DNA of 64,000 nt from Synechococcus sp. RS9916 (GTDB lineage: Bacteria > Cyanobacteriota > Cyanobacteriia > PCC-6307 > Cyanobiaceae). Positions 38,505 to 46,709 of this stretch are shown in pieces. The first letter of the stretch is position 1, and every line of letters begins with the position of its first letter. The stretch is taken from assembly GCF_000153825.1 (NCBI RefSeq), contig NZ_DS022299.1, positions 124,001 to 188,000 of the forward strand, written 5' to 3'. The notes under the pieces were generated by a model that did no database searches, was not told the DNA's origin, and saw only the letters and a program-made list of their open reading frames with translations. The translations under genes were made by a program, and so were the position numbers.

Positions 38505-38783
38505 TTAAGTGCTAATGCTTAGGTCTTGCAAAGGTCTTGCATCCTGCTGTTCCAATTGATGGGTCGCTCTTGGATCTTGCCGGTTGGATGTATTGCCTTG
38601 TCTCTTTCGCAGTTGGCAATGTCTCGGAGGTTTTCCAGCAGCCGCAAACTGGGTGTTGCTAATTTTTCTGGGGTTGGTGTCGATGACACAGAGGGTTTTA
38701 AGCTTGTGTCCGTTTTCTTCTTTGAGCCGATAGCCCACGTCGATGCGATTATTGGGCTGATTTGTTGCTCTATCGTGAGTCAT
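38505..38783 (-). pseudogene. GAF domain remnant
   Basis: The frame includes GYRLKEENGHKLKTLCVIDT, then NPRKISNTQF and HCQLRKRQ. This aligns with the GAF domain of the 14640 protein (FPLTNDTQERIGTLCVIDRQ, PKHLSDNQL, LDLRKRS). The upstream half of the domain and any partner domain are absent, and the sequence after SNTQF has drifted. The region is AT-rich. A decayed copy of a GAF sensor gene. Confidence 0.6.
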
Positions 38784-39268
38784 TCGTTCGTTTGCGGATA
38801 GTGCTCATAAACGGTTGTGTGGCTGTTTTTGTCAATGGCCAGCACTGCGTAGGGCTCCGGCGTGATGCCGTCATCGTCCATCCCTGGTGAGCCCATCGGC
38901 ATGCCAGGAGCTGTAAGGCCGCGAATGGAGAGATGTTCTGTTAGTAGGCGGCGAATGGCGGCGGCTGGCACATGCCCTTCGATGACGTAGCCCTCCACCA
39001 GGGCGGTGTGGCAAGACTCCAGCTCCGGGATGATTCCGTTGGAGGATTTCACTGCGTCCAGGTTGTTGCTCACTACATCAGTGATGACAAAACCAGCAGC
39101 GCTGAGGTGGTTCTCCCAGGAGGTGCAGCAGTCGCAGCTGGCGGAGCGATGCACCACCACCTTGGGGTTGGTTTGTGCCTGCGCACTGGCCGCAGCAACC
39201 AGCAGCACCAGCAGGCTGCTGAGCAGATAGCCGGTCATGCGCAGGAGCAGGGATTGCAGCGAAGTCAT
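38780..39268 (-). CDS. DUF411 family metal-binding-like protein
   Basis: A 162-residue secreted protein with a signal peptide (MTGYLLSSLLVLLVAAASAQA). The DUF411 signature is complete: VVVHRSASCDCCTSWENHLSAAGFVITDV, with CxCC, then SCHTALVEGYVIEGHVPAAAIRRLL and APGMPMGSPGM. DUF411 proteins accompany copper resistance and are thought to bind metal through the Cys cluster. Here no Cu genes flank it. Start at 39268 or a few codons later. Confidence 0.87.
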   Translation of the reverse strand: MTSLQSLLLRMTGYLLSSLLVLLVAAASAQAQTNPKVVVHRSASCDCCTSWENHLSAAGFVITDVVSNNLDAVKSSNGIIPELESCHTALVEGYVIEGHVPAAAIRRLLTEHLSIRGLTAPGMPMGSPGMDDDGITPEPYAVLAIDKNSHTTVYEHYPQTNE

Positions 39269-39348
39269 GCAGCCGCTTGGGGAGTGAAAATGCTGATGTG
39301 AGCACCCATGCATCCTGGCTAGGGAATGGGGCAGATGCCGCTGGACCC

Positions 39349-39474: not shown

Positions 39475-39512
39475 ATTCAGAGGGATTTGGAAGGAGTTAG
39501 GTACAACAACGT

Positions 39513-39532
39513 GGGTACTTTGTTCTTCGCAA
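39513..39532 (+). promoter_or_regulatory. Shared upstream element (copy 1)
   Basis: GGGTACTTTGTTCTTCGCAA ends 64 bases before the start of the twin-CX3C protein at 39597. The same 20 bases with one change occur at 45047-45066, 65 bases before the paralogous start. Conserved position and sequence while the surroundings differ: promoter, operator or leader element. Confidence 0.6.
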
Positions 39533-39596
39533 TCTGAGGAGGATTTCTCCCGCATTCGTTTTAGTGTCATCGCACTGTGACGGGTGGAGTTCTCTG

Positions 39597-39761
39597 ATGG
39601 CGACCCTGGCTCTGGCGAGTGTGACTAATCCTGCTCTTGAGGAACGCGATGCGATCGAGTCGTATTTCGAATGCATCACCAGTTGTGATTTGAATGACGG
39701 TGTTTGTGTGGAGCACTGCGTGGTGGTGCATCTGCGTGCGGAGCCTGACGACGACGGATGA
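39597..39761 (+). CDS. Small twin-CX3C protein, copy 1
   Basis: A 54-residue protein: MATLALASVTNPALEERDAI, then ESYFECITSCDLNDGVCVEH, then CVVVHLRAEPDDDG. Four Cys in the pattern C-x3-C-x6-C-x3-C, which could form two disulfides or hold a metal. It ends in an acidic tail. Paralogue at 45132-45296 shares DAIESYFECITSCD. An exciting but unassigned family; function unknown. Confidence 0.68.
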   Translation: MATLALASVTNPALEERDAIESYFECITSCDLNDGVCVEHCVVVHLRAEPDDDG

Positions 39762-39857
39762 CGGACGTTGTTGCCGTAGCGGCCCCTGATCGCTGAGTAA
39801 CCCCACTGGGGTGGAATGCTCCTGTCAGAGATGACTGGGCGCCCTAAAGTGATCTCA

Positions 39858-40145
39858 ATGAGAGAGGTGCTGATGACTCTTCTTCTCGTGTTCAACCTGC
39901 TGCTGGTTGCAGTGATCCTCACCGACTATGTGGTGCGGCAGGTGCTGGAGCGTGTCGGGGACTGGCGCCGGGTGCAGAAGATGCTCTCCGGTCACCCTGA
40001 GATGAAAGGGGTCCACCCTGACCAGGATGGCTTGGTGGTCTTTGATATCGACGAAGACCTCGGGTCCTTCATCCTCGATAACGAGGACCCTGGAGAAAAC
40101 CGACCTTTTCGCGTGGTGGTGCCCGACTTCGACGACGAAGACTGA
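39858..40145 (+). CDS. Membrane-anchored acidic protein
   Basis: A 95-residue protein (from 39858): a membrane helix (LMTLLLVFNLLLVAVILTDYVV), a basic stretch (RQVLERVGDWRRVQKMLSG) and a very acidic C-terminus (FDIDEDLGSFILDNEDP, VVVPDFDDED). A longer start (39816) is possible. The length and layout suggest a small conserved membrane protein; function unknown. Confidence 0.6.
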   Translation: MREVLMTLLLVFNLLLVAVILTDYVVRQVLERVGDWRRVQKMLSGHPEMKGVHPDQDGLVVFDIDEDLGSFILDNEDPGENRPFRVVVPDFDDED

Positions 40146-40153
40146 CGCTCGGC

Positions 40154-40975
40154 TCAGGTCACTGGGTCAGGCAAGTGCAGGGTCCCGCGCAGAAAGGGCA
40201 CGACCCGGCCGCTGATGAGCACCCGCGTGCCATGCATCTGGCAGTGCAACGTTCCTCCCCGTGCCGACAGTTGGCGCGCATGCAGCGACTGCTTCCCCAA
40301 ACGCTGGACCCAGTAAGGCACCAGGCTGCAGTGGGCGGAGCCAGTGACCGGATCCTCCGGGATGCCGATTTTGGGTGCGAAAAAGCGGCTCACCAGATCC
40401 ACGTGTTCACCTGGCGCGGTCACGATCACCCCCCGGCCATCCAGCTGTTCCAGGGCCTGAAGGTCGGGTCTGAGGGCGCGGATCTCCGCCTCGCTGGCCA
40501 ACACCGCCATCCAGTCGGCACCGCGATAACAGCTTTCAGGTACGCGTCCTAGACCTTGGATCAGGGCGTCGGGTGCGGTGCAGGGTTCGCTGTGCTGCAC
40601 CGGGAAGTCCAGCGTCAGCAGTGGGCTGTTGTTCAGTGACGCGTTGTCTGGTGACCCGTTCCGCATCACTTGCAAGGCACCACTGTGGGTGTCGAAGTGG
40701 AGGGCTTTGCGCTCCGGAGCCAGGCCAAACATCACCTGGGCGGCGGCCAGGGTGGCGTGTCCGCAGAGATCCACTTCGCATCGGGGCGTGAACCAGCGCA
40801 GATCGTGGCGCTCCGTTCCGCATCTCACAAACGCCGTTTCCGAGAGATTCAGCTCAGCGGCGATGGCCTGCAGCAGGGCATCGGGAAGCCACTGGTCGAG
40901 GACGCAAACGGCGGCCGGGTTGCCTGTGAAAGGTCCCTCCGCGAAGGCGGCCAGTTGTTCGATCGGAATCTGCAT
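40154..40975 (-). CDS. PhzF-family isomerase-like protein
   Basis: A 273-residue protein with the PhzF signatures: QLAAFAEGPFTGNPAAVCVL, ELNLSETAFVRC (catalytic Glu), RWFTPRCEVDLCGHATLAAA and EDPVTGSAHC. PhzF proteins are diaminopimelate-epimerase-fold enzymes that isomerise small dihydroaromatic acids; most cyanobacterial members have unknown substrates. The fold is complete with normal length. It ends 8 bases after the convergent gene. Confidence 0.9.
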   Translation of the reverse strand: MQIPIEQLAAFAEGPFTGNPAAVCVLDQWLPDALLQAIAAELNLSETAFVRCGTERHDLRWFTPRCEVDLCGHATLAAAQVMFGLAPERKALHFDTHSGALQVMRNGSPDNASLNNSPLLTLDFPVQHSEPCTAPDALIQGLGRVPESCYRGADWMAVLASEAEIRALRPDLQALEQLDGRGVIVTAPGEHVDLVSRFFAPKIGIPEDPVTGSAHCSLVPYWVQRLGKQSLHARQLSARGGTLHCQMHGTRVLISGRVVPFLRGTLHLPDPVT

Positions 40976-41037
40976 GGGCTGTGCCTGCCGCAGGCCGACG
41001 GAGATGCAGTTGAATCATCTCCTGCGATCAGGAGGCG

Positions 41038-41265
41038 ATGGAGACGACACCGCTGCAGCGTTTTCTCGATCACCTCAGCCGCGACCCGGTGCTCCAGGTG
41101 AAGGTGCAGGCCGCCGTCACAGCCGATGAGGTGGCCTTGCTGGCCCAGGAGCTCGGCTACGCCGTCTCGGGCAGTGATCTGCTGCGCTCGTCTGGCGACG
41201 CCGTGAAGGGTGTGCGCGTCACTCGCGTGGATCACCCCGGTGAATATCCCGGTCGTTACTACTGA
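41038..41265 (+). CDS. Nif11-like small protein, copy 1
   Basis: A 75-residue protein: METTPLQRFLDHLSRDPVLQ, VKVQAAVTADEVALLAQELGYAVSGSDLLR, ending GVRVTRVDHPGEYPGRYY. The first 55 residues match the Nif11 domain (LxxFLxxxxxDxxLxxxVxxAxTxDEVxxLAxELGYxxSxxDLL), which serves as a RiPP leader in other cyanobacterial peptides. There is no double-Gly cleavage site; the tail shares PGEY with copy 2 (42748). A good Shine-Dalgarno (AGGAGG) precedes it. Confidence 0.8.
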   Translation: METTPLQRFLDHLSRDPVLQVKVQAAVTADEVALLAQELGYAVSGSDLLRSSGDAVKGVRVTRVDHPGEYPGRYY

Positions 41266-41283
41266 CGGCTCCTTGATGCCAAC

Positions 41284-41309
41284 AAAAAACCCCACCGCAG
41301 GTGAGGTTT
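41284..41309 (+). terminator. Hairpin terminator
   Basis: AAACCCCACC-GCA-GGTGAGGTTT, followed by GTGTTTG and preceded by six A. It closes the Nif11-like gene on the plus strand, perhaps in both directions. The 41310-41642 stretch after it holds no gene or feature I can support. Confidence 0.7.
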
Positions 41310-41642
41310 GTGTTTGAAGTGTTCTGCCGGGGGATGGATCAGCCTCACAACACCACAGACCGCCCTGCCTTCCCCTTCAAGGGTTTTGTATGGCTTTCAG
41401 CTCAGCAACAGGGCTGAGCATCAGGCTCCCCGGCGTGGATTATTGAAGCGAAGTCTGGCGGTTTGGCCATTCACTGGCTTGTGATCGATTGCGTGTCATG
41501 GCGAGGTGGTGTGGATGGTGATGGCGTTGAGGGGCTGTTCCCTTCGATGCATTCACCATCGCTCTTCAGCCGGGGGCGGGTGATGACGGCTGGCAGGATC
41601 GCCGGTGATCTTGCTCACCAGAAGACGGACCCGTGTCAAAAG

Positions 41643-42109
41643 AGGAGGCCGCCCCTCCCGGATGGAAGAGACGGCCTAAATCGCTCGTTTGTTCATAACG
41701 ACCAACCTGAATTCAGTGTTGCCGTGGAAGTGGTTCCTCAAGCAATGGGACTGAATGAATGTGGTCGAAGCAACTGGCTGTGGCGCCTGGGGCCAGGTTC
41801 TTAAGGGGGAGGGCGGTGAAACTCCTTAGGGCACCTCGGACGGTGCAGATGGAGTGCCGATCGACGTGGCGAAACCTGATTCAGTGCCTGCCGAAGGGCT
41901 GTCCCTCTCGAATGCGTGAAGACTGTTGGAGCAGGGGCCAGAAAGTCAGCGTGCTTCTTAGCTCTGCTCGGGTGGAGCGTCGGCCGTCATTGGCGCCTCC
42001 GATCTCGTTGACATCAGTGTTGATCCAACGCTGTCAAAGGGCAATCGGTGCAATGGCGCATTGCACCGATGACGCAGCACCGCCGATCATGGAAGAGGCG
42101 TGCCTGATG
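41643..42109. repeat. Repeat family A, copy 3 (diverged)
   Basis: It starts with the same hairpin (GGCCGCCCCTCC-CGGAT-GGAAGAGACGGCC, loop region 41657). It keeps CTGTTGGAGCAGGGGCCAGA at 41924-41943 and GCGCCTCCGATCTCG, and ends GAGGCGTGCCTGATG. GAGCA/TGCTC pairing of the second stem is maintained. It adds an 11-bp perfect hairpin (ATCGGTGCAAT-GGCGC-ATTGCACCGAT, 42044-42070). It ends 6 bases from the doxX stop. Diverged sequence with retained hairpins argues for an RNA element. Confidence 0.75.
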
Positions 42110-42115
42110 CCTGAA

Positions 42116-42604
42116 TCAGTTCTGAAATTCCGCCGCATTGGGCGTCAGCAGGGCATCAAGTTTCTCGGCCTGGGCGCGTGCACTAGGAGCGATTTTGCGC
42201 ACCAGCAGTTCATCCAAGGAGAAACGACCTGGTCCTGCGGCCAGCACCATCGCTGCAGCAGCGAAGTACAGACCCAGCAGTTCGAGCAGATAGATGTTGA
42301 AGCCGTTCACCACGATGGCGTGATAGATCGCCACGCTGATGGTTCCCGCAATCGCCAGGGCCCCAAAACGGGTCAGCAGTCCGGTGATCAGCAACCAGCT
42401 GCCGATGATCTCTGAAAAGGCAGCCAGATAAGACAGGGTGATGGGGAAGGGCAGGTGCAGTGGGCGCACGAAAGCTGCCGCGAAGTTTTCGATGTTGGCG
42501 AGCTTTTCGTAGCCGTGATGAATCAACAGCACACCGGTAAAAACCCGCAGAATCAACAACCCGAAGTCCGTGAGGAATGGGCGGGTAAGAACGGAACGCA
42601 GCAC
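42116..42604 (-). CDS. DoxX-family membrane protein
   Basis: A 162-residue protein (from a GTG at 42604; a TTG at 42706 extends it). Four membrane helices: FLTDFGLLILRVFTGVLLIHHGYEKLAN, LPFPITLSYLAAFSEIIGSWLLITGLLTRFGALAIAGTISVAIY and LLELLGLYFAAAAMVLAAGPGRFSLDELL. GPGRFSLDxL is the DoxX C-terminal motif and RxxxGxxxxxHGxxKL the N-terminal one. The family supplies small quinol-oxidase-like or stress functions. It is divergent from the Nif11-like gene. Confidence 0.82.
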   Translation of the reverse strand: MLRSVLTRPFLTDFGLLILRVFTGVLLIHHGYEKLANIENFAAAFVRPLHLPFPITLSYLAAFSEIIGSWLLITGLLTRFGALAIAGTISVAIYHAIVVNGFNIYLLELLGLYFAAAAMVLAAGPGRFSLDELLVRKIAPSARAQAEKLDALLTPNAAEFQN

Positions 42605-42747
42605 GTTCGAGAGGACAGCTTCGAGAAAGTTAACGATTTCCTTGGCGCTGTCGTGAGCGCTGCGGTCAGCGCTCGCCCACCGACCGACCTCAGCCGCCTT
42701 CGTCAATGATGGGTGGCTCCCTGAACAGCTCAGCTGCTTGTCGTGCC

Positions 42748-42963
42748 ATGGCCCTGGATCAGTTGAAGGCGTTCCTGGTGCGCATGCAAGACGATGAAGC
42801 CCTGAAGCAAACTGTGCTTTCGGCCTCCACGGCCGACGATGTGGCCAAGATCGCCGCAGGTCTTGGTTACGAGTTTTCGGGCGATGAATTGCTGCGCCTG
42901 TCGGGCAAGAAAGTGGGCCGGGTGACGGTGTCCAAGCAGGACACCCCCGGCGAATACAACTGA
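42748..42963 (+). CDS. Nif11-like small protein, copy 2
   Basis: A 71-residue protein: MALDQLKAFLVRMQDDEALK, QTVLSASTADDVAKIAAGLGYEFSGDELLR, ending VGRVTVSKQDTPGEYN. A complete Nif11 helical domain; the tail PGEYN resembles copy 1 (41038). No Gly-Gly site, so it is unlikely to be a cleaved RiPP precursor of the usual kind. A longer frame starts at 42706 but the Nif11 domain begins here. Confidence 0.8.
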   Translation: MALDQLKAFLVRMQDDEALKQTVLSASTADDVAKIAAGLGYEFSGDELLRLSGKKVGRVTVSKQDTPGEYN

Positions 42964-42985
42964 TTCGGTTGCGTGGACGGCTGCC

Positions 42986-43285
42986 TCAATCGACGCCCAT
43001 TGAGAGATAGGTCTCGTCAACATCCACCATCTCGGCTTCGTCGTGGTGGCATCCACAGCCATAGAGCAGGTGGAGAATGCGTCCCACCTCAAGATCCCGA
43101 TCCGCCACGTCCTGCCAGAGGCGTCGGCTCAACTCCATGTCGGCCAGTTCGAACTGGGCCCGCACCAGCTCGCGGGTGATGGCGAAATAGCTCTGGCGGT
43201 CATTGCGGGCCCTGCATTCCTCGGCGGCGCTCACCGACATCAGCAGCGGCGTGGTTTTGAGGAAGGCGTTCGCGAGGTTGGGCAT
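42986..43285 (-). CDS. Helical protein paralogous to the C-terminus of the DUF4278 fusion
   Basis: A 99-residue protein: CRARNDRQSYFAITRELVRA, ELADMELSRRLWQDVADRDL, EVGRILHLLYGCGCHHDEAE. The same helical domain makes up the C-terminal half of the protein at 37914-38345 (NDRQAYLAVARDL, AKRLWEEVGDRGMDVDRITHLLYGC). The His/Cys/Glu cluster (YGCGCHHDEAE) could bind metal. Convergent with the Nif11-like gene. No named family known to me. Confidence 0.68.
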   Translation of the reverse strand: MPNLANAFLKTTPLLMSVSAAEECRARNDRQSYFAITRELVRAQFELADMELSRRLWQDVADRDLEVGRILHLLYGCGCHHDEAEMVDVDETYLSMGVD

Positions 43286-43416
43286 GACACCTCCAAAGCA
43301 TTGCCCACACTTTCAGCGCTTTGCTCGCCTCTGCCTACCCGTGCAGTTGCTTATTGCCTTTTGAGCAGGGGTCGGTGGAAAGTGATTTCGGCTTGTCTCA
43401 AGTCAGCGGTGGGCAT

Positions 43417-43773
43417 TCAACGCAGTGCCGTGACACTGCCGTCTGGGGCGCGCTGGGTGAGCTCCACCACCGGAGGGAAGGCCAGGAAGGCCAGACAGGT
43501 GAGGATTTCATCAAGCCCTTCGTCATCCAACGGCTGACGGTTCGTTTCTCCAGCGATCGAAAGCCAGGCCAGCAGCGTGGAGCCGTCGCTATGCACCACC
43601 TGGGTCATCACCCCATTGGCGTGGTCGCGTTCTTCCATGCCATGGCGATCTTCGAGGATGGCCAACACGCGCTCCAGCAGCTGCTGTCGGTTGAGGGTGT
43701 CGTTTGACAGCAGTTCAACGAAAAGGTCGGCGCCGTCGGCTTCAAAACGAACGCCGTAGCTGTGGGTGGTCAT
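43417..43773 (-). CDS. Small conserved-looking protein
   Basis: A 118-residue protein: MTTHSYGVRFEADGADLFVE, LLSNDTLNRQQLLERVLAILEDRHG, TQVVHSDGSTLLAWLSIAGETN, PPVVELTQRAPDGSVTAL. An alpha/beta pattern typical of a soluble regulator-sized protein. The long upstream frame overlaps sodC and is not credible. It follows sodC in the same direction by 16 bases, so likely one operon. Confidence 0.6.
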   Translation of the reverse strand: MTTHSYGVRFEADGADLFVELLSNDTLNRQQLLERVLAILEDRHGMEERDHANGVMTQVVHSDGSTLLAWLSIAGETNRQPLDDEGLDEILTCLAFLAFPPVVELTQRAPDGSVTALR

Positions 43774-43789
43774 GGAGTTCTGCAAACGA

Positions 43790-44323
43790 TTAGCGGCCCA
43801 CCACCCCGCAGGCGATTCGGGCACCGCCGCCACCAAGGGCGGGGGTATCGCTGTAGGTGTCCCCGCCGGCATGGACGACGAGAGCCTTGCCGCGTAAATC
43901 GGCAGTGCTGAGTCGCGGGGCGACAACGCTGGTGGGAGTGGTGCCGTCGTCGTTCACCACCAAACGGCTGAGGTCCCCGCGGTGACCATTGCCGAACGGA
44001 CCGAGGTGTTCGCCGGTCTCATCAGGATCCCAATGCCCTCCTGCAGCCAGCCCGGCCACCATGGCGCCATCCGCATTGGCTGCGCTGTCGCAGCTGCCGT
44101 TGGCGTGCAGGTGGAAACCGTGTTCACCGGGGGTGAGGCCGCTGAGGCTCGGAATGATCTCCAGGCCTTGATCGCTGTCGCGGGCAGACACCCTGCCGAT
44201 CGACTCGCCGACCCCATCGGCGCTGATGCGGTGCAATGTCACCTCCACGGCAGCGGCTTTGGCGATCCCAGGCCAGATCAGAACGGCCGACACCACAAGC
44301 ATCAGTGCGATCAGGCGGCGCAT
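43790..44323 (-). CDS. sodC: Cu/Zn superoxide dismutase, secreted
   Basis: A 177-residue protein with a signal peptide (MRRLIALMLVVSAVLIWPGIAKA). SOD signature: GEHGFHLHANGSCD (Cu-binding HxH), GGHWDPDETGEHLGPFGNGHRGDL (Zn and Cu ligands), ALVVHAGGDTYSD (Cu His), GGGGARIACGVV (disulfide Cys and the electrostatic Arg). Complete active site and normal length, so it should remove superoxide in the periplasm. The start at 44323 is chosen for the ideal signal peptide. Confidence 0.93.
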   Translation of the reverse strand: MRRLIALMLVVSAVLIWPGIAKAAAVEVTLHRISADGVGESIGRVSARDSDQGLEIIPSLSGLTPGEHGFHLHANGSCDSAANADGAMVAGLAAGGHWDPDETGEHLGPFGNGHRGDLSRLVVNDDGTTPTSVVAPRLSTADLRGKALVVHAGGDTYSDTPALGGGGARIACGVVGR

Positions 44324-44522
44324 GGAGGTGCTGCAGAACGCCACCATTCTGCGCCAATTTCTGGTGTTCAGAGGCTCATGCGGGTGTGAAGGGTTTCTTT
44401 CTGTTTGCACTCTTCCGCTTGTGGGTGTGTGCGTTTTGATTCGCCCACAGGGAACCGTTTCTGTCGTGGCGGCCACAGTGATGGGATCCCGCTCTGCCTA
44501 TCAGAGGTCAAAGGAGGGATGC

Positions 44523-44822
44523 ATGCTCACCACCACCACGCGACTCAAGTTGCAGGAAATTCTCGGGCGCGTTGCCCGCAGCGAACCGGTCAGCCTCCAG
44601 GAGCGGGTTCTGCTCCAAAAATACGCCGACCGTGATCGCACCGTTAGCAGCTGGGTGCATCGCGCTGAGCGGTTGCGTCAACGCGGCTGCGCGGCGCCTG
44701 GGTTGGATGGTCTTCTCGATGATCTCGACCTTGGTAGCAACGATGCCGGTGATCGCCATCGCCCTGGGGATGATCTGGGTGACTGGTTTGGCGGCGCTTC
44801 CCCCTGGCTGCGCCGTGACTGA
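44523..44822 (+). CDS. Small conserved-looking protein
   Basis: A 99-residue protein with a strong Shine-Dalgarno (AAAGGAGGGAT) just upstream. It reads MLTTTTRLKLQEILGRVARS, EPVSLQERVLLQKYADRDRTVSSWVHRAERL, ending DLGDWFGGASPWLRRD. Helical and charged with a Trp-rich tail. It overlaps the next gene by 8 bases (GTG inside the stop). The frame past residue 60 also reads as another frame of the following gene, but the tail looks protein-like. Confidence 0.65.
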   Translation: MLTTTTRLKLQEILGRVARSEPVSLQERVLLQKYADRDRTVSSWVHRAERLRQRGCAAPGLDGLLDDLDLGSNDAGDRHRPGDDLGDWFGGASPWLRRD

Positions 44823-44991
44823 AGCCGGGCCCTTTCCCGAAAGGGGCGGTCGCCTGGTGGTGATCAATGGTCGCCTGTATCGGCGTGTGGAGCTGTCGGG
44901 TTTGCCCGCGCGTCGCTGGCGTCTGGAGGCTTTGGAGCTTTCTGAGGCCATCGCCTGGTTGATTCGTGAACAGCAGCCCCCTGCGGCTTGA
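44815..44991 (+). CDS. 58-residue hypothetical protein
   Basis: From a GTG overlapping the previous stop: MTEAGPFPERGGRLVVINGR, LYRRVELSGLPARRWRLEALELSEAIAWL, IREQQPPAA. A beta-then-helix pattern. The open frame extends back to 44572 with a hydrophobic stretch (MVFSMISTLVATMPVIAIAL), so a membrane-anchored form from 44707 is possible. Coupled to the gene at 44523. Confidence 0.52.
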   Translation: MTEAGPFPERGGRLVVINGRLYRRVELSGLPARRWRLEALELSEAIAWLIREQQPPAA

Positions 44992-45046
44992 GCTGTTGTG
45001 CTGTTCGCCAGGTCTGCTGAATGCAGGTCAATAGGTATTTACTGCT

Positions 45047-45066
45047 GGGTACTTTGTTCTTCTCAA
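45047..45066 (+). promoter_or_regulatory. Shared upstream element (copy 2)
   Basis: GGGTACTTTGTTCTTCTCAA ends 65 bases before the ATG at 45132. Identical to 39513-39532 except one base. Flanking bases differ, so the element rather than the whole region is conserved. Confidence 0.6.
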
Positions 45067-45131
45067 CCTCCATCAATCTGTCCCTTCAATTGCGATAGGT
45101 TCGCCTTATCGGTTCATGGAGGAGACAACGC

Positions 45132-45296
45132 ATGATGCAAGGAATGACGTCCTTGAATGGATCAGACCAGCGGGATCAGGTTGACGCGATTGAGTCCTAT
45201 TTCGAGTGCATCACCAGCTGCGATATCGATGATGGTGTGTGTGTGCAGCGCTGCGTGCTTGTGCATCTGAAGCAGGGAGATGATGGTGGTGGATGA
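45132..45296 (+). CDS. Small twin-CX3C protein, copy 2
   Basis: A 54-residue protein: MMQGMTSLNGSDQRDQVDAI, ESYFECITSCDIDDGVCVQR, CVLVHLKQGDDGGG. The same C-x3-C-x6-C-x3-C pattern as copy 1 (39597) and 18 identical residues around it; the N- and C-termini differ. It starts with ATG-ATG, with GGAGG 11 bases upstream. The next gene starts inside its last codons. Confidence 0.68.
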   Translation: MMQGMTSLNGSDQRDQVDAIESYFECITSCDIDDGVCVQRCVLVHLKQGDDGGG

Positions 45297-45498
45297 CGGT
45301 GAACGGGTTCAGGTTGAGGGTGTCTTGGTGCATCGCTTTTCGGGTCATGATGGACCGATCGATCGGCCTTGCACCGGTGCCCACTGCGTTTACTGCGCCG
45401 ATGTGTCGATTGCGCGCTCTTATCTGAGTTTCTGGAGGCGTTCGCCCGACCATCGCTGCCGCAGTCAGACTGCCCATCGTCCGGGACGGCGCCATTGA
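45283..45498 (+). CDS. Hypothetical protein overlapping the CX3C gene
   Basis: A 71-residue frame from an ATG inside the previous gene: MVVDDGERVQVEGVLVHRFS, GHDGPIDRPCTGAHCVYCADVSIARSYLSF, then a basic end (WRRSPDHRCRSQTAHRPGRRH). A CxxxxCxxC arrangement suggests metal. Overlaps the previous gene by 14 bases and the next by 4. Not recognised; may be a real overlapping gene or chance. Confidence 0.42.
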   Translation: MVVDDGERVQVEGVLVHRFSGHDGPIDRPCTGAHCVYCADVSIARSYLSFWRRSPDHRCRSQTAHRPGRRH

Positions 45499-46043: not shown

Positions 46044-46270
46044 GAGTACACCTGTGCTGTTCTTGGTTCTAACCCTGGTCGCTGGGCAAAGGGCAAGTGG
46101 ACAGGTTCATAACTGTGAGCAGATGCGTCTATCCACAGATCAGGCGACTATCCCGTGACTCTCCACAACTGCTTGCCACTTGGATCTGAGGCTGCTGCAG
46201 AAAGGGACTGGAAGCCCTGGCCTACTGGCCCGAAATGGCTGCTAAGACTGAAGGAGTCCTGGAGACGCTG

Positions 46271-46423
46271 ATGCCTGCAGACAAAGACAAGAAGCAACAG
46301 CTGAAGGACGAGATCACTAAGGCCAAGCAGGCCATACAAGAGTTGTCTGATAACGAATTGAAGGGTGTCAGCGGCGGTGTTCGCGGAGGTCGTGTCAAGG
46401 ATCTGCCGGGTGTTCGCTACTAA
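46271..46423 (+). CDS. Double-glycine leader peptide (RiPP precursor candidate) 1
   Basis: A 50-residue peptide: MPADKDKKQQLKDEITKAKQ, AIQELSDNELKGVSGG, then VRGGRVKDLPGVRY. The leader ends in ELSDNELKGVSGG, the classical double-Gly cleavage site for C39-type exporters (PCAT), seen in bacteriocins and prochlorosin-type RiPPs. The core of 14 residues is short, basic and without Cys/Ser/Thr to modify. The first gene of a two-gene set; 34 bases before the next. No transporter or modification enzyme is in the window. Confidence 0.72.
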   Translation: MPADKDKKQQLKDEITKAKQAIQELSDNELKGVSGGVRGGRVKDLPGVRY

Positions 46424-46457
46424 CCCAGAAACTTCAACACCGAAACCCAAGGAAACA

Positions 46458-46709
46458 ATGACTGAAAAACAAGACAAGAAGCAGGAAGTCAAAGAGGAGC
46501 CAACTACGGCGGAGCAGGTGAAACAAGAACTCTCTGATGAAGCCCTTGAAGGCTTGAGTGGCGGCCTCGGCGAAGGAAAGGATTTCAAAGCCTCAGAGCC
46601 TTATATGGTTTATGCGGATGACTCCTTATTCTACGGAAAATCTGCGGCAACAATAAAGCTGAGCTGTGTGCTTTTGTCCAGTTCTGGCGATGCCTCTGTT
46701 GGGGTATAG
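46458..46709 (+). CDS. Double-glycine leader peptide (RiPP precursor candidate) 2
   Basis: An 83-residue peptide: MTEKQDKKQEVKEEPTTAEQ, VKQELSDEALEGLSGG, then a 47-residue core LGEGKDFKASEPYMVYADDS ... KLSCVLLSSSGDASVGV. The leader shares DKKQ and ELSDxxLxGxSGG with the gene before it. The core has many Ser/Ala/Asp and one Cys. A good Shine-Dalgarno (AAGGAAAC) precedes it. Probably exported as a bacteriocin- or signal-like peptide (inference). Confidence 0.72.
   Translation: MTEKQDKKQEVKEEPTTAEQVKQELSDEALEGLSGGLGEGKDFKASEPYMVYADDSLFYGKSAATIKLSCVLLSSSGDASVGV

Follow-up and report, generated by a model that had tools for sequence, protein, structure and literature searches.

The window analysed here, a 64,000-nucleotide stretch of the Synechococcus sp. 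RS9916 genome (contig NZ_DS022299.1, positions 124,001 to 188,000), carries two forward-strand genes for small cysteine-rich proteins that share an upstream sequence element. Gene 1 (39597..39761) and gene 2 (45132..45296), both recognized as open reading frames (ORFs) and by family search, encode 54-amino-acid mini-proteins with the common pattern C-x3-C-x6-C-x3-C (i.e., twin CX3C) and belong to a subfamily designated F. A preliminary description of this DNA had pointed out both proteins as well as a shared 20-mer located 64 and 65 bp before their ATG codons, in upstream regions that have otherwise diverged; all of these observations were confirmed. The 20-mer, GGGTACTTTGTTCTTC[G/T]CAA (shared part DAIESYFECITSCD), occupies positions 39513-39532 and 45047-45066. 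With up to 3 mismatches allowed, these were the only two sites in the window, as compared to 0 sites in 100 dinucleotide shuffles, and the same two sites were the only ones in the 2.66-Mb genome, in which a reversed control pattern gave 0 matches; the pair is unique in this genome.

At both genes, a TAGGTA half-site is located exactly 14 bp upstream of TGGGTAC (39498/39512 and 45032/45046). The gene 1 element (39498..39532, plus strand) comprises TAGGTA (39498-39503) and TGGGTACTTTGTTCTTCGCAA (39512-39532), and the gene 2 element (45032..45066, plus strand) comprises TAGGTA (45032-45037) and TGGGTACTTTGTTCTTCTCAA (45046-45066). R1, a sequence-only model of the element that was run on 40 genomes, matched these sites at 39496-39534 (29.2 bits) and 45031-45068 (26 bits), respectively. 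Candidate -10 boxes read from the sequence lie on the plus strand 50 nt past the second half-site, i.e., TAGTGT (39562..39567) for gene 1 and TAGGTT (45096..45101) for gene 2. A cyanobacterial LexA operator (RGTACNNNDGTWCB) was considered and rejected, as the window element reads GTAC-TTT-GTTC and is one base short of GTAC-N4-GTWC; many versions of the element in subfamilies B and C (see below) also lack GTAC.

The gene 2 protein has relatives with 76% and 74% identity in two other genomes (G008 and G012, respectively), and a relative of gene 1 in the same setting was found in a third (L010, genome G015, contig C196). A third family copy in the RS9916 genome (C1:1636993) belongs to subfamily A and lacks the element.

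Distribution of the family and of its upstream elements

A search of 60 genomes with the gene 2 protein located 85 copies, at 1-4 places per positive genome; the family was present in all 37 genomes of the window's taxonomic family and in none of the 23 genomes of other families. A profile search of 291 genomes of the class gave matches in 37 (36 genomes of the same family and 1 outside it, the latter a single match with E = 0.008 and an internal stop), where 234 matchless genomes are unlisted and may include same-family genomes. In a scan of named genomes, which yielded 100 relatives, the best 80 of 100 were titled Prochlorococcus, Synechococcus or uncultured picocyanobacteria. The 85 copies form one family that has no existing name. 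Sorted by motif, they fall into subfamilies A (37 copies), B/C (29 copies; the boundary between B and C is arbitrary in this sorting), D (4 copies), E (4 copies) and F (10 copies, including the window pair), with 1 other copy. Neither Pfam nor NCBIfam gave a significant match for the family (the best values among 80 members were E = 0.0035, to an unrelated domain of unknown function, and E = 0.033), and searches of the literature, with subscription journals mostly outside coverage, turned up no recognizable account of the family or of its phage relative (gp134/T4-GC 363; see below). While the preliminary description knew of no bacterial counterpart for the window proteins, there is thus a whole bacterial family and, in addition, a phage counterpart. 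We also noted a Prochlorococcus-like subfamily with a 10-residue loop, an ending KANYW or KTNYW and a core like NPIDEYFQCLSYCDIHPKGIDNDCEVIC, which comprises eight near-alike copies (L446, L456, L460, L467, L473, L476, L497 and L503).

The literal 20-mer is restricted to the closest relatives of the window genes. It is exact in G008 and G012 and has one mismatch in G015, where a second copy holds most of the 20-mer and is cut by the contig end; matches with 2-3 mismatches elsewhere were approximately as frequent as those of the reversed control. In aligned upstream regions, a degenerate form of the 20-mer precedes the first Cys codon of B/C and F genes by 149-167 bp, and in B/C genes it is located upstream of a -35-like box. 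The expectation that the 20-mer would precede other family members therefore held for the degenerate form in B, C and F, whereas the literal form did not extend past the closest relatives and subfamily A differs. Positions T5, G22, A24 and A39 are invariant in alignment A1, which represents 22 of 35 distinct sites (the site list is without L098 and L118, and L028, L090 and L108 were placed by hand). A strict TANNNT at offset 50-52 was found in 5 of 33 element-bearing promoters (chance approx. 3% each), these being 5 of the 6 F sites counted, and -10 boxes of B and C (TATAGA and TAATCA) were seen by eye at offset 52-53.

Among the 40 genomes, R1 gave 30 matches at E < 0.05, and 29 of these are located upstream of family genes by coordinates; the 30th lies where contig C84 of G015 ends, and the sequence there is syntenic with the window at 42.5-45.1 kb. 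All 29 B/C/F genes in the 25 genomes of the window's genus had an R1 match, although recall is partly circular, as many of these promoters were in the training set of R1; the absence of other targets is not circular. Matches were weak at L068 and L098 (E = 0.0024 and 0.048, respectively). Seven genomes of the genus without B/C/F genes (G004, G006, G009, G010, G018, G022 and G024) had no R1 match at E < 0.05. No wider regulon of the element was detected with R1 at E < 0.05 in the 40 genomes, in a first look that scored at most 150 candidates per genome and may have missed weak sites; 18 further R1 matches with E = 0.1-5.4 lie elsewhere, 12 of the 18 in genomes of other families. In four Prochlorococcus loci, weak R1 matches (E = 0.0085-0.18) in T-rich sequence approx. 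1 kb past the gene have no long frame after them and were taken as chance. Moreover, a matrix derived from B/C sites only, scored over the 64 kb on both strands (approx. 128,000 positions), ranked the window sites 1 (gene 1; 15.9) and 2 (gene 2; 14.1), the next score being 8.8. Among 133 copies outside any matrix (14 best per group printed), 12 scored at least 12, and the sites of all 12 fall between -149 and -158 relative to the first Cys. The element is linked to these genes and, as R1 matches are found almost solely before family genes, it looks like an operator dedicated to them.

Subfamily A genes have their own, different upstream block, which a pattern search located at 34 of the 37 A loci. 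The block is strongly conserved: in alignment A3, made from 18 of 28 distinct A-type blocks, 22 columns are invariant. A model of this block (R2) gave one strong match each, at the A gene, in all 16 same-family genomes searched; no R2 regulon beyond the A gene was apparent in these 16 genomes, where all other matches had E values of at least 0.046. In 35 A loci, the A gene comes after one for an ABC-type ATPase, and an opposing, perhaps HtrA-like gene is located downstream in 35 genomes (names assigned by eye from translations).

Cysteine core, predicted fold and cyanophage relatives

The cysteine core, constant between the two window proteins, proved constant in the family as well. Four Cys in two CX3C pairs were present in 84 of 85 host copies (the exception, L105, is without C3), and the loop between the pairs has 6 residues in 79 of 85 copies and 8-10 residues in five others. 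Four Cys were also found in 57 of 60 further places fetched; the three misses were L483, which has an in-frame stop, and the weak matches L485 and L504. Among 160 phage proteins read from 163 IMG/VR loci, 113 have four Cys (including L440, which was mis-binned by the script and counted by hand), 40 are without C3 (39 of one type and L441) and 7 are without C2 and C3 (three sequence types); these shares are not population frequencies, as the proteins represent the best 80 per query and one query (L360) is itself without the inner pair. C1 and C4 were present in all 160 proteins, i.e., losses are confined to the inner pair. Judged by this pattern of retention, the outer pair C1-C4 is the indispensable one, and the loss of inner Cys only favors a hairpin with C1-C4 and C2-C3 disulfides over a metal site with four Cys ligands.

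AlphaFold predicted two helices for a host protein (residues 11-29 and 35-50), with one CX3C per helix; the predicted local distance difference test score (pLDDT) was approx. 90 over residues 21-40, the ends were poor and the predicted template modelling score (pTM) was 0.47. The model of a phage protein, with helices at residues 4-38 and 42-56, had a mean pLDDT of 85 and a pTM of 0.57. Both the host and the phage protein are thus predicted to be helical hairpins. Inspection of the host translations by eye revealed no signal peptide, and no chain in the PDB matched the family profile by sequence at E ≤ 10.

The phage relatives were recognized through phrog_665, a phage protein family of unknown function, which matched the gene 2 protein weakly (E = 8.8e-4). 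In 36 genomes, all 23 matches of phrog_665 at E < 0.01 were family genes; at E ≤ 1, matches also occurred in 2 of 14 control genomes. It matched Syn9, P-SSM2 and all five virus contigs tested, and did not match S-PM2, P-HM2 or P-SSP7. Searches of isolate phages by tblastn with the gene 2 protein, a host-like phage protein and two other host proteins gave no match; it was phrog_665 that linked host and phage. A comparison by hhalign of the host alignment (A2; 80 of the 85 copies, distinct proteins) with a pure phage alignment of 14 sequences (A4) gave a probability of 94.9% and E = 4.7e-8 over 30 columns, and the comparison of A2 with A5, in which one row is a host-like phage sequence, gave 96.5% and E = 8.2e-10. 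By these profile comparisons, the phage proteins are homologous to the host family.

At E ≤ 0.01, a search with Syn9 gp134 found relatives in 351 phage records out of 50,697; by name, the 351 are Synechococcus (283), Cyanophage (46), Prochlorococcus (16) and Marine (6) phages. By comparison, a capsid protein with 60% or more identity to Syn9 gp23 is present in 468 records, which need not be the same ones as the 351. The gene is located directly after the major capsid gene gp23 in 4 of 14 records viewed (Syn9, Syn2, S-RIM2 and P-RSM4) and one gene from gp23 in Syn33; in the other records viewed it lies elsewhere or in unannotated sequence. It is unannotated in P-SSM2 (L269, 48382-48516) and in many of the best 40 of the 351 records, including many ACG-2014 phages. 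None of the 22 phage loci tested carries the R1 element. Using a subfamily A query, we also found six IMG/VR contigs (L160-L165) with a host-like twin-CX3C protein that is 59-65% identical to subfamily A. In the one contig examined (L162), the host-like copy adjoins a DNA polymerase I gene; the nearest isolates for this polymerase are Roseobacter and Pseudomonas phages (approx. 46%), and the host of the contig is therefore uncertain.

Proposed role, neighboring genes and alternative explanations

We propose that the two window genes are inducible paralogues within a picocyanobacterial protein family (Synechococcus, Prochlorococcus and relatives) whose members are approx. 50-70 amino acids long. 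Each protein would form a hairpin of two helices with a short turn between them and a single CX3C on either helix; C1-C4, aided by C2-C3, would staple this hairpin by disulfides in an oxidized cell, and the protein may serve as a small thiol-redox switch or as an adaptor for a host partner. Upstream of the -35 region, a putative transcription factor would bind the bipartite element, whose two TAGG-type half-sites are spaced by 14 bp; this regulator would control these paralogues only, the widespread subfamily A would be controlled separately, and cyanophages would carry their own version of the hairpin. For the reading as a whole, i.e., inducible paralogues of a thiol-redox hairpin family controlled through the element by a dedicated regulator, we estimate a probability of approx. 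0.5. Within it, we infer the disulfides, the redox or physiological role, activation rather than repression, the signal, the regulator and the partner. A defined, regulated function, which the preliminary description had deduced from the constant element and the constant Cys core, is likely, as the element survives in degenerate form across subfamilies and genomes.

Several observations weigh against this proposal. The 40 phage proteins that keep C2 without C3 indicate that inner pairing is not obligatory there; the host protein is presumably cytosolic, where disulfides require oxidation; and neither Foldseek, run on models of both the host and the phage protein (no match at E ≤ 0.001), nor the VIA structure comparison (Z at most 4.5) gave a significant structural neighbor. 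With regard to the element, the test with the B/C matrix was not wholly blind, as B/C sites were located with a matrix first seeded by the window sites, and a matrix of just four F sites is weak, ranking other sites 1 in 12 of 34 loci. Among 15 copies of the VHL/IHL type, 7 scored at least 12 and 8 failed (five small-genome Prochlorococcus-like copies, L451, L469 and L484, the last two having a related site that was visible only by eye); L475 and L207 were below the score threshold as well. Finally, no element was found in subfamilies A, D, E, P1, P3 and P4.

Neighbors of the pair in the window include genes for a DUF411 protein (38780-39313) and for a Cu/Zn superoxide dismutase (43790-44476), which make metal stress or oxidative stress a reasonable starting guess for the two genes. 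The strongest alternative, improbable in our view at perhaps half the weight of our proposal, is that the four Cys, which on two facing helices could form a site, hold a metal between these helices, as Zn, Cu(I) or an Fe-S cluster; the proteins would then serve to buffer metal or to deliver it, and metal stress would induce them. Single members do match Fe-S subunits, but weakly and at chance level (E = 0.03-0.09). However, phage homologues drop C3 or C2 and C3 while C1 and C4 stay, unlike what a four-ligand site would lead one to expect, and no DUF411 protein or superoxide dismutase was recognized by eye among neighbor clusters common to at least 4 genomes.

It is less probable still that the proteins serve phage infection, the host copies acting for or against the phage and the cyanophage version mimicking or blocking them. 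The 351 phage records with phrog_665 relatives, the position directly after gp23 and the second, host-like version in six IMG/VR contigs are what this explanation draws on. On the other hand, the gene is not directly after gp23 in 10 of 14 records viewed, the phage loci lack the element, homology to the host may merely reflect an old acquisition, the widespread host copy occupies one fixed place, unlike a defense island, and PADLOC gave no match for either of the two window proteins. Least plausible is that the element is a remnant of gene duplication without a regulatory role: every carrier found is a paralogue and inheritance alone could explain the element, yet it persists across subfamilies and Prochlorococcus-like genomes, with its spacing to the candidate -10 (50-53 nt, partly by eye), while the flanking upstream sequence has diverged.

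Returning to the thiol-redox hairpin, a broader and more tentative extension, which we consider possible but doubtful, is that a redox mini-protein system, as yet undescribed, is common to picocyanobacteria and their T4-like phages. In it, a widespread hairpin would be accompanied by extra copies under one exclusive regulator, and phages would keep a diverged version, in some cases beside the capsid gene, directed during infection at the partner that the host protein has. The family covers all 37 genomes of the window's family first searched, a group that includes the ocean's commonest photosynthetic cells. Its small size, the sharp regulatory handle of some copies and the natural phage variants without inner Cys make both the chemistry of the mini-protein and its role in infection directly testable.

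Among the other ORFs of the window, a small Cys-containing ORF (45280..45498, plus strand) overlaps the end of gene 2 and is a possible operon partner, possibly co-translated with it; homologues at the same place in G008 and G012 are 69% and 67% identical over 52 amino acids, respectively, and the ORF had no NCBIfam match and a best Pfam match at chance level (E = 0.17). Two ORFs with Nif11-like leaders (41038-41265 and 42706-42963) and two with GG motifs (46235-46423 and 46365-46709; motifs LKGVSGG and LEGLSGG), all named by eye, possibly encode peptide precursors. Rfam identified no RNA element in the window, its only match being sub-threshold (RAGATH-8, 42410-42613).

Comparison with known systems

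The preliminary description had likened the proteins to small mitochondrial chaperones. As an analogy this is fair, given the predicted hairpin and the confinement of Cys losses to the inner pair: small Tim proteins (Tim9/Tim10 type) also carry a twin CX3C on two helices, and the C1-C4/C2-C3 pairing proposed here would follow theirs. Membership in that family is not supported. Only 1 of 80 members touched zf-Tim10_DDP (PF02953; E = 0.021) and none did so significantly, the PDB search by sequence was equally blank, and the spacer is too short, i.e., 6-10 residues in a bacterial and presumably cytosolic protein as compared to about 11-16 residues in small Tim proteins.

Alpha-hairpinins and other disulfide-stapled helical hairpins offer a second analogy, in a short two-helix, Cys-rich design. 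These are secreted eukaryotic peptides, the alpha-hairpinins being of plant origin, whereas the family genes are bacterial and encode no signal peptide that could be seen by eye. Acrorhagin I, a disulfide-rich helical peptide, was the top Foldseek row for the host model (E = 1.4, not significant); in the VIA comparison it reached Z = 4.5 (root mean square deviation 4.6, 48 residues aligned), a score tied by an unrelated kinase chain, and the resemblance is a hint at most.

The third comparison is with phrog_665, or "T4-LIKE GC 363" (Syn9 gp134). The phage proteins differ from the host family in an N-terminal MHNLxSxNQL segment within one long helix, which was not seen in host proteins, in a basic second helix and in the occasional loss of inner Cys. 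What aligns between phage and host is the Cys core alone, and there both have [YF][FY]EC-x3-C-loop-C-x3-C in a predicted helical hairpin.

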